NCBI GenBank assembly: GCA_012862575.1
Contig: BLSF01000018.1
Location: forward strand, 563,680 to 627,679
Source of the DNA: Parietichytrium sp. I65-24A
Lineage: Eukaryota; Sar; Bigyra; Thraustochytrida; Thraustochytriidae
Direction of reading: 5' to 3'
DNA length: 64,000 bases
The position numbers and the translations under genes were made by a program. Positions 5,392 through 44,716 of the stretch are shown here, piece by piece. The notes under the pieces are model-generated. The model saw only the letters and a list, made by a program, of their open reading frames with translations. It searched no databases and was not told where the DNA came from. Position 1 is the first letter of the stretch, and each line of letters opens with the position of its first letter.

Positions 5392-8300
5392 GAAGACTTG
5401 CCGATCCTCGCATTCCTCTATTCTATTCTCTCCCACAATTCGTGGGAGCTTCTCAAATTACTAAATTCTGAATTCTAAGCCAATCCTTTTCCAAATATGA
5501 GACTTTGCCGTGTATGAGCGGATCCAAATCTCGCCTTGCGCCAGGCTCGAATAAGGTTTGCGAGGGTGCATGTGGCCCGACCTGCAGAGGCTTTTCGCCC
5601 ATGCGAGCGCCGACGCCTCCCTTCTTCCCCCCTTTCCCCCTTCTCCTCCTCCCTCATTCACGCCCAAGCTTTTCAGAATTCAGGACCACGGCTATCTTTT
5701 AGCAACAGCCAAGCAAGCGTGGCGTTCCATCACGTTTTTTCATCACGTTCGGGTCGTTCGGCTATGGCCTTTTGGGTCAAAAACCAACAGTGCGCTCCGC
5801 GCGTGAATGGGAAGGCCGAGGGCGGAGTGGGCGAAGAGGGGGCGCCAGGAGAACCACGAGAAGGGGGGGGAGAGGGACTCTAGACTTGGGATCTCAGAGA
5901 TACACAGTATCGGTACCATAATCGAAGGTCGTCTCAGAACACCTCCACACCGCCCGCCAAGCTTGCGCGAACATCATGCATGAGCCAAACCCATTGCTCG
6001 AATCACACTTTAGCAAGGCTTGTGCGGAACCCCCATGGCGATGCATTGACTGACTGCGACTCACCAGATCTCACCTCTAACCCCCACGCACGTGCCAGGC
6101 CACGTGCCCGATGCTATTTAGCTAGTGGAGATAGTGGAGGCTGGCCGTTGCACACTTCCGGGGATGAGATGTCTTCGTGCTGCACTGCCCCCATCTGCCC
6201 CCCATGGGTCTCGCGAGCGGCCTTGCGGAGTTGAGAGAATTAGGATGCTCATTTTCGTTAATTTGGCAAAATAACCAAAAAAGTGTTTCGCAGTCTGAAG
6301 GCGGTGCCAGATGGCTCTCCGTCGCGTGGGGGATGGACTGCGAGTCGAAGGAAATACAGATCCATGAATCTATGGATCCAAAAGGATCGTGAACTTGACT
6401 AGATGATCCATCGCCTGGGACGCGAGCGTCGGGTCGGCAGGGACGCGGACGCAACGCAACGCAACGCAACACAACCTATTTATTTTCACATTTCGCCTCT
6501 CACATTTCACATTTGTGGCTCGGCGCCTTTCGTAGACACATCTTGGCTTTTTCATTTGCTTCCTCACGATCCAACCCATCCAAGCACACAAGTTTTAAGG
6601 TCGTCAGAGTCGTCAGGACATGTCAGGAGCACAAAAGCCGAGAACGAGGACGACGATGAGGATGAGGACATGGAGAAGCCATAGCATTGGCAGCCGCTCT
6701 GTAGGAGAGATAGTCTCGACACAGGCAATCAACTTGGAAGAGAGCTTGTTTTGGAGCTCCTGTGATCGCCTCCGACTAGCTGCTTTTGCTACTCGCAGTC
6801 AGCTCGCGCTGCGGGCCACTTGTCGTTGCATCTTGCATTCCATTATTAAGTGAAGCCACGAAGTGACGGCGTAAACAAACCCTATCGGAAGGTGGGGTGC
6901 TTGCATTCTATTCTTTAGTTTGAAGGAAACTGATTTTGTATCAGTACAAATTCAAACTCAAACTCACAGCCAGCCTCAGTTGGGAAGTTTGAAGGATGGA
7001 TTGACTACTCACAGTCAGTTTCCTTAGCACAGAAAGAGGCGCTGCTCCGTGAACGAACGAACTTCAAAATCCAGCGTGACGAGACACTTTCCTCACCTCC
7101 TTGGATTCTGTGCAACAAGCTGACGGAATGAAATTTGCTTTCCTTCTTTCATTCATAAGTTGTTCTTTCTTTCTCGCGAACGAGTTGTAACAAAGCCCAA
7201 GTTCCTCAATGCCACCACCACTTCTCGACACTGATGGACATGTGGCCGCCAGTAAGGGTGGTTGCCAGGCACGTGGACTGCATTTTGCAGTGGAGAGTGG
7301 ACCATAGTACTGGTACCGGTAATGGTACTCAGTTCTCAGTTCTCAGTTCTCAGCAATCTCAGCAACCAGGCTGTGATTGCATTGTTGGCTTTCCAAGTTT
7401 AGCGCCGATTTTTATTTGAACTGTTTGTTATTATCATAAACGCAGGTACCGGTATGTGTCTTTGATGAGAGCTCAAGGCTTCAGAATAGAGTTCAGAATT
7501 GACTGTGAATTCAGAATTCAGAATTCACTGTGAGGTTGACGAAGATAATTCACCAAATCTCTGTTCGGCAGAAATAAAGGAAGAAGGAGGGTGAAGTGAG
7601 AAGGTACTAATACAGTACTCCCTGTCAGTACCTTTAATTCTGTGTCACTCTCTCTCTCTCTCTTCTCGCTCTCTCATCTCTCTCTTCGCAAATCTGAGCA
7701 CTGTTCTGTATCTAATCTGTAGCTGCCACTACTGCTCTCCAACTCCAACTCCCACACATCTCGAGTGTGCGACCGCTGCCAAGCGCTACTGTTTTCATGT
7801 AGGTATTGGTAGTGCAGGAAGTTAGATGTTCTGTTTCCTCAAGGAGCCCCATGATCCTTATTCGACAAATAGAGCTAGCCACTAGCAGCAGGAGACTTTA
7901 CGCGAGACGGAAACGGCGCAAGTCCCTTCGTTCGATGTCAATGTTCATGTCAATGTCAGAATAATAAATGCAAGATGAAATGATTGATTGACTCTGAAAA
8001 TTGATTGGTTGACTGGTTGGTTTGAATCATATTCGATAGATTGCCGAATTTCTCTCTTGGAGTCGATAGTTTTCATGGATGATGAACATTGAGAGAGACA
8101 AAACGGAGACAGAGTTCTTTGTGGATCGGCCGCTGATGGTTGAGTGTTTTAAGAGTTAGCAGTGCTGTGCTAAATGAGCTGAATTCTGAATGAGCTATTC
8201 TCAAATGCATGCGTGTCACACACTCGCTTGGAAATTTCAAGTTCACGTCCCACATCATCATCAATCTGTCGAACCAAGAAATCACTGACTACGCCTAGTC

Positions 8301-43551: not shown

Positions 43552-43678
43552 AACCTTGCGTTCGGGATTGAATTGAGGAATAAGGAGCTGCTCGTCCGAG
43601 TGGGGGAGCAACGAGCTATTCGCTGTGTCCAAAATGCGCGAAACCCTCTGTTTTCAGTTTTCCGAAATTCTTCTGTTC

Positions 43679-43732
43679 CTAAGTGAAGCCACGAAGTGAG
43701 AGCGTAAACAAACCCTATCGGAAGGTGGGGTG
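43679..43732. mobile_element. Tiny insertion element, copy B, with 9-bp target duplication
   Basis: A 54-bp insert between perfect 9-bp direct repeats CTTCTGTTC (43670-43678 and 43733-43741). It shares 54 of 56 bases with copy A, although the flanking repeat sequence is different, so the flanks belong to the target and not to the element. There are no terminal inverted repeats and no ORF. Confidence 0.6.
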
Positions 43733-44716
43733 CTTCTGTTCTGAATTCTGGTTTTTTGTTTTCGAATTGTTGTTCGAGGGCATCGCGCGTGGGAGAGGAA
43801 CACTGCGTTGACTGCGCTGTAGTGCGTGCGTCTTTGACGCCGATCTCCTGAGAGCGTTTAGTGGCTCTTTTTGAAAGTGCCTTGAATTTGTTTTGATTGA
43901 AACGAGTGATGTTGCTTCACACGCCGGCGATCGGCTGTGCCTTCCTTGGAGTACGCATGACTCTGAGACCGATTCTGCGACAAAAGCTTTGTAGTTTGCA
44001 AATGTTTCTCGTGTGAAGACGTTGAAAATGTTTTGTCTGATGTTTGGAACCAAAATCTACAACAAGAAATTTGGCGCTGAAGAAGCAGCAGCGATGGGTG
44101 GCGCTTCGATCATAGAAGAAGAAGAACACTGATCTGACGGCCTTGGCGTCTCTGCGATTATGGCATATTTCGTGTGACTTTTATAGTTCCCTTGACACGA
44201 GTAACTTCGCCGTCTCGAATCAACAACAAAGCACGCTCATACATGCTTGACTGCCCACACAGATACGCAGCATAACCGTGTCCTCAGCACATTGTTCACC
44301 ACGTGAACTTGCTTTTTCAATTGACTGTCCATGTCCACGTTCATTTCACTGAACTGAACAGAACATCTTCAATCGAAGAAACTAACACCAGTCAACTCCC
44401 GGACTTGGGATTCGTCTACATGTACGTGCACTACTTTCCAGAAGGACAGAGTGGTACTGACTGTGAGAACAGCTGACAGCGCTTAGTTAGCACACCCTCG
44501 GACCACTGGTACACTGGTACTGAGTACCACTGGTGGACCCGAGCGCGCACATCGTCTCACATCGTCTCACACAGCACACTTCGCTCGTACATCGTACATC
44601 GTACATCGCACAAGTTCACACTTTCAGCCAAGCGTGAATTGCGCGAGGAGGCTCGCCACCATTGCAGTGCTGAGTGCTGAGTGCAAACATAGTCTAGCCG
44701 CGAAAGTGCGACAGAG

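Follow-up and report, generated by a model that had tools for sequence, protein, structure and literature searches.

A dispersed family of ~52-bp elements with a fixed 9-bp target duplication and a distant target word in Parietichytrium sp. I65-24A

Two copies of a short element

The window, a 64,000-nucleotide stretch of contig BLSF01000018.1 of Parietichytrium sp. I65-24A, encodes eukaryotic proteins in its long frames (e.g., an MCM helicase and coproporphyrinogen oxidase). No tRNA genes were found in it, and no Rfam family in the window reached the gathering score. The window holds two copies of a short element, here called A and B, whose parts are listed in Table 1. The original prediction described the two as near-identical, and their cores indeed differ at only 2 positions, with perfect 9-bp repeats flanking copy A and copy B alike. 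The same prediction was correct in describing an element that lacks long inverted ends and contains no open reading frame.

Table 1. Parts of the two element copies in the window
Feature	Positions	Strand	Basis or remark
Copy A, left 9-bp target duplication CTTGCATTC	6832-6840	.	Sequence read directly
Copy A, CATTATT, extra bases of the ragged end (5' on the plus strand)	6841-6847	+	Between left duplication and core
Copy A, element core, 52 bp	6848-6899	+	Sequence read directly
Copy A, putative 3' hairpin, CCCTATC-GGAA-GGTGGGG region	6880-6898 (limits approximate)	+	Plus-strand fold
Copy A, right 9-bp target duplication	6900-6908	.	Sequence read directly
Copy B, left 9-bp target duplication CTTCTGTTC	43670-43678	.	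Sequence read directly
Copy B, CT, extra bases of the ragged end	43679-43680	+	Between left duplication and core
Copy B, element core, 52 bp	43681-43732	+	Sequence read directly
Copy B, right 9-bp target duplication	43733-43741	.	Sequence read directly

A genome-wide family with a fixed stagger

Copies A and B are members of an interspersed, genome-wide family of ~52-bp elements, as evidenced by searches of the 42.5-Mb genome (172 contigs). The 27-base end of the element, AAACAAACCCTATCGGAAGGTGGGGTG, occurs within 3 mismatches at 370 places in the whole genome (204 forward and 166 reverse), while a reversed-pattern control found 0 places at the same threshold. Exact matches to the last 17 bases of the element number 245, and those to the first 18 bases of the core number 185. 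An older subfamily with the end CCCTATTGGAAGGTAGGGTG is represented by at least 5 exact and at least 18 one-mismatch places; two of its stem positions are changed with plus-strand pairing kept, which is one comparison only. A search of viral contigs with a 29-base end returned 0 matches.

A first set of 115 copies with long flanks was assembled from 117 loci; it over-represents copies whose right end is exact, and most of its members lie on contigs C1 to C28. Duplications were called by seeking the nine bases beside the flush end of the element again beyond its ragged end, with at most 1 mismatch allowed. By this measure, 85 of the 115 copies carry their own 9-bp duplication (66 exactly) and 30 do not, whereas a swapped-flank control yielded 0.09% exact repeats and 0.88% with one mismatch. 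The target duplications proposed for the two window copies are real, and the abundance of copies in the genome, with a flanking repeat particular to each, bears out the proposal of a mobile element. In the 115 copies, aligned from their flanks, the element is not part of any longer repeat.

The insertion stagger is a fixed 9 bp. Among the 66 exact duplications, 51 are exactly 9 bp, 13 are 10 bp, and 2 are 15 to 16 bp long, and chance extension to 10 bp is expected for about a quarter of true 9-bp cases. The original prediction called for flanking repeats of 8 to 10 bp; such repeats are present, but their length is fixed at 9. One locus (L068, G000:C9:374698-375724) holds two inverted copies whose ragged ends face each other across a short palindromic spacer, and neither copy has a called 9-bp duplication.

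One flush end and one ragged end

The two junctions of the element differ in kind: one end is flush and the other is ragged. The flush end is the plus-strand right end (...GGTGGGGTG), which lies directly against the duplication; its constancy in the 85 copies is partly a selection effect, given that the search anchor was built on this end. As a check, among 20 fetched places with the left part of the element and no exact right end in the match lists, inspection by eye found the right end damaged or missing in 3 (L140, L150, and L153). The left end carries short T/A-rich extras or small truncations, and the insert without its duplication measures 52 to 56 bp in 62 of the 85 copies, less than 50 bp in 10, and more than 56 bp in 12.

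Extras of up to 7 nt comprise 70 T, 46 C, 27 A, and 5 G. The choice between C and T in these extras shows no link to the internal subfamily of the copy (38 copies; permutation p = 0.18, with low power), as expected if the extras are formed anew at every insertion. Across the first set and a second set described below (n = 111), the first base of the insert is C in 66 copies, T in 33, A in 7, and G in 5. The insert starts with CA in 57 of the 111 and with TA in 21; in the case of one-base extras, the A of the initial CA already belongs to the element. The 57 inserts that start with CA thus have CA...TG termini, as the inserts end in TG. Two loci have long fillers at the ragged end that hold the 9-bp target in reverse, exactly in L109 and with one mismatch in L066; they resemble the product of a fold-back of the end that then copied the target.

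Site choice and repeated use of sites

In about one-third of the insertion sites, the word GGAAC, at its best GCGGAAC, lies 16 to 17 bp beyond the duplication, to its left or to its right. Motif counts exclude the 30 of 115 copies without a called duplication. GGAAC starts at this distance in 27 of the 85 copies (10 on the left only, 17 on the right only, and 0 on both sides), against about 0.4 per 85 expected by chance, an expectation derived from 10 occurrences over 46 other offsets combined. The longer GCGGAAC, at 14 to 15 bp, is found in 12 of the 85. Because the word was discovered in the first set, a second set provides an independent test: 28 of its 47 loci had a duplication call, 26 were kept after L162 (which has the flanks of L158) and L163 (spurious) were dropped, and GGAAC lies at 16 to 17 bp in 10 of these 26. 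Exact GGAAC is missing from 58 of the 85 copies, and weaker forms of the word may be present in many of them, judging from a position table. Inspection of the two window copies by eye shows GGAA in place of GGAAC on the right of copy A, at the offset of the motif, and no target motif beside copy B. As for background frequencies in the window, GCGGAAC occurs 16 times against 8.5 expected, an excess of about twofold, and GCGGAACC is not over-represented (2 against 2.1 expected). GCGGAAC may itself serve as a promoter or a site for a host factor.

Insertion sites also avoid open reading frames. When the empty site is restored, a frame of at least 150 codons runs across it in 6 of the 85 cases, compared with 48% of 2,000 random positions in a control drawn from the window only.

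Certain sites have been used more than once. Head-to-tail copies separated by a shared target repeat occur at six loci (L032, L081, L101, L108, L116, and L117, with L108 and L117 read by eye). Because the copies within L032, L081, L101, and L116 differ in their tails or internal bases, the pairs at these four loci represent separate insertions. GGAAC lies at 16 to 17 bp in five of the six loci; in L117, it lies at about 13 bp, beside a decayed repeat. L032 and L081 turned up incidentally, and L116 and L117 were fetched with a pair-seeking pattern. L017 is a more tangled cluster. The earlier reading of the window foresaw neither the constant spacing of the target word nor the repeated use of a site.

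Candidate helpers in the genome

A search with RVT_1 found only telomerase and one LINE-like family as reverse transcriptases. The gene for the telomerase reverse transcriptase, with Telomerase_RBD and RVT_1 domains, lies at G000:C11:65169-65615 (L118). A LINE-like reverse-transcriptase frame (L119/L120, G000:C1:1287782-1289548) is located near the end of contig C1, where the LINE-like copy runs off the contig, and further fragments (L121 to L128) are on C45, C40, and C138; the C45 fragment adjoins two 5S rRNA genes identified with Rfam. The end of the element is absent from the readable 3' regions of L120 to L128, which gave two weak partial matches, neither at a plausible end; the assembly or the search may have missed other LINEs. 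The LINE-like junctions show no 9-bp duplication accompanied by the target word, only two chance-like repeats.

Matches to a MULE transposase domain are present at C106:4561, C9:354544, and C4:939917, in frames of 521, 847, and 1,072 aa, respectively, with no stops inside the domain match. Among the matches listed, the MULE loci on C4 and C9 have no copy of the element within a few kilobases.

A proposed mechanism: target-primed retroposition

A fixed stagger is compatible with two classes of mechanism: DNA transposition, and target-primed reverse transcription in which the endonuclease is a dimer. We favor the latter because one end is ragged and has untemplated-looking bases, because the flush end adjoins a hairpin on the plus strand, and because the element is physically so short. 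At roughly even odds (a probability of about 0.5), the element is a non-autonomous retroposon whose ~52-nt plus-strand RNA is inserted by target-primed reverse transcription. Such an RNA would end in the hairpin ACCCUAUC-GGAA-GGUGGGGU, and we infer that a reverse transcriptase supplied by a helper would recognize this 3' structure. A dimeric, sequence-guided endonuclease would nick the target twice, 9 nt apart, and one of the resulting 3' ends would prime cDNA synthesis exactly at the 3' end of the RNA (...GGUG), creating the flush junction. On leaving the 5' end of the RNA, the enzyme would add a few untemplated bases or would stop early, and the cDNA would then join the far side of the cut, creating the ragged junction. 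The added bases would be chiefly A, followed by G, when read on the cDNA, corresponding to T and C in plus-strand reading. Either orientation of the element relative to the target word would be allowed because either nick could prime, and sites with the word would stay open to further hits. The original prediction had pointed to a variable 3' tail on the minus strand; that difference is real and corresponds to the extra bases, but judging from the hairpin and the flush end, it is probably on the 5' side of a plus-strand RNA.

There is precedent for several of these steps. One account of target-primed reverse transcription, in the part available, holds that the switch to the far strand of the target may be aided by untemplated bases and describes at least one enzyme of this kind as a dimer whose subunits make one nick each (PMC2881922). 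Likewise, R2 and its short deletion derivatives are described, in part of another source, as having untemplated additions at their 5' junctions (PMC3414825). Among known systems, a close likeness is to the R2/R1 SIDEs of Drosophila, which, according to the same portion of that source, are non-autonomous, reduced to the needs of the helper, and equipped with a structured 3' end, untemplated 5' junction bases, and a sequence-directed site (PMC3414825). Read on the plus strand, the element likewise has a precise 3' junction and a variable 5' junction with untemplated-looking bases. However, those SIDEs descend from R2/R1 and occupy 28S rRNA genes, whereas the element has scattered targets and no known parent; the one LINE-like family in the genome shares no common end with it in the readable parts.

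The plus-strand fold is better than that of shuffled sequences (z = -2.2, with 5 of 200 shuffles as good), and the minus-strand fold is unremarkable (z = -0.63). Several observations count against target-primed retroposition. Covariation was not found among the 36 distinct hairpins of single copies: of 32 changed pairs, pairing is kept on the plus strand only in 6, on the minus strand only in 11, on both in 2, and on neither in 13, so single-copy mutations do not favor the plus-strand hairpin. Also, the fixed duplication length and the orientation-symmetric choice of target would suit a DNA transposase, and the CA start with the TG end hints at matching DNA ends. A further point against it is that RVT_1 turned up no reverse transcriptase besides telomerase and the LINE-like family, whose readable 3' regions do not contain the end of the element.

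Weighing the alternatives

The foremost alternative is a miniature DNA transposon that depends on a transposase of the Mutator type, or on another that duplicates 9 bp, with one defined end and one loose end at a nearby CA. We consider this unlikely but worth serious attention. An excerpted description of MULEs gives duplications of 8 to 11 bp and families in which inverted ends are missing (PMC6446971). A duplication that is mostly 9 bp falls within this range, the three open MULE frames offer a possible source of transposase, and the symmetric use of the target word and the CA...TG termini would both fit. Nevertheless, beyond CA/TG the element has no inverted ends, and it is far shorter than Mutator-like elements and MITEs; its single ragged end bears T/A-rich, G-poor extras that are unexpected from either concerted two-ended transposition or random capture of donor flanks, and the MULE matches on C4 and C9 lack nearby copies among the matches listed. 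Pairing the ends of a 52-bp element would, moreover, require very tight bending.

A retroposon of ordinary SINE polarity, in which the RNA would be the minus strand with 5' CACCCC... and 3' ...CTTCACTT followed by a short A-rich tail, is less probable again. It would account for the observation that most copies, read on the minus strand, have an exact 5' end and a brief A-rich stretch at the 3' end, and the last bases of L022 are repeated, which 3'-end slippage could produce. These tails, however, consist of 0 to 3 A with G beside the duplication, rather than a run of A; folding of the minus strand is unremarkable; and in the 85 copies no untemplated bases were seen at the CACCCC junction, where 5' variation would be expected. 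The element does resemble SINEs in being short, non-coding, interspersed, target duplicated, and presumably moved by the reverse transcriptase of another element, and to that extent the earlier idea of a SINE-like retroposon stands. It differs in its size of ~52 bp (an abstract gives 100 bp for Platy-1 SINEs), in the constant spacing of its target word, and in a duplication fixed at 9 bp rather than of the variable lengths of SINEs. A SINE head with tRNA, 5S, or 7SL likeness was not found in the tRNA scan of the window or the Rfam scan of 6780-6960, no clear Pol III box B is visible by eye in the element, and the 3' end that a SINE would have in common with its helper LINE was not found in L120 to L128. 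The suggestion of a truncated SINE of an Rfam RNA fails as well: an E-value scan of 6780-6960 gave only two matches, far below the cutoff, the best at 18.6 bits against 114, and neither is a credible relative. Finally, an introner, an intron-making element, is very improbable. Part of a published account reports introner families with median lengths of 30 to 654 nt and, in some, duplications of 3 to 9 bp (PMC9860276), and the element is of similar size and duplication length. Constant GT...AG boundaries are lacking, however, and we rejected this reading given that the insertion sites avoid open frames.

Implications

Within target-primed retroposition, we tentatively propose a more specific and less probable version, a minimal retroposon. 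Its 52-nt RNA would comprise hardly anything beyond the recognition hairpin, and its helper would read GCGGAAC at a fixed distance, cut with a 9-nt stagger, prime from either strand, and leave a site that can be refilled. No comparably small element with a target rule of this kind appeared in the literature searched, although absence is not thereby proven. The fixed distance of the word makes the geometry of the cutting enzyme, a 9-nt stagger with the word 16 to 17 bp away, directly testable. Should a DNA transposon prove responsible, it would be an extreme, one-ended one and equally surprising. If the minimal retroposon is real, it would represent a size record and a rule of target choice undescribed for SINEs in the literature searched, and it would reveal how little sequence a mobile RNA needs.
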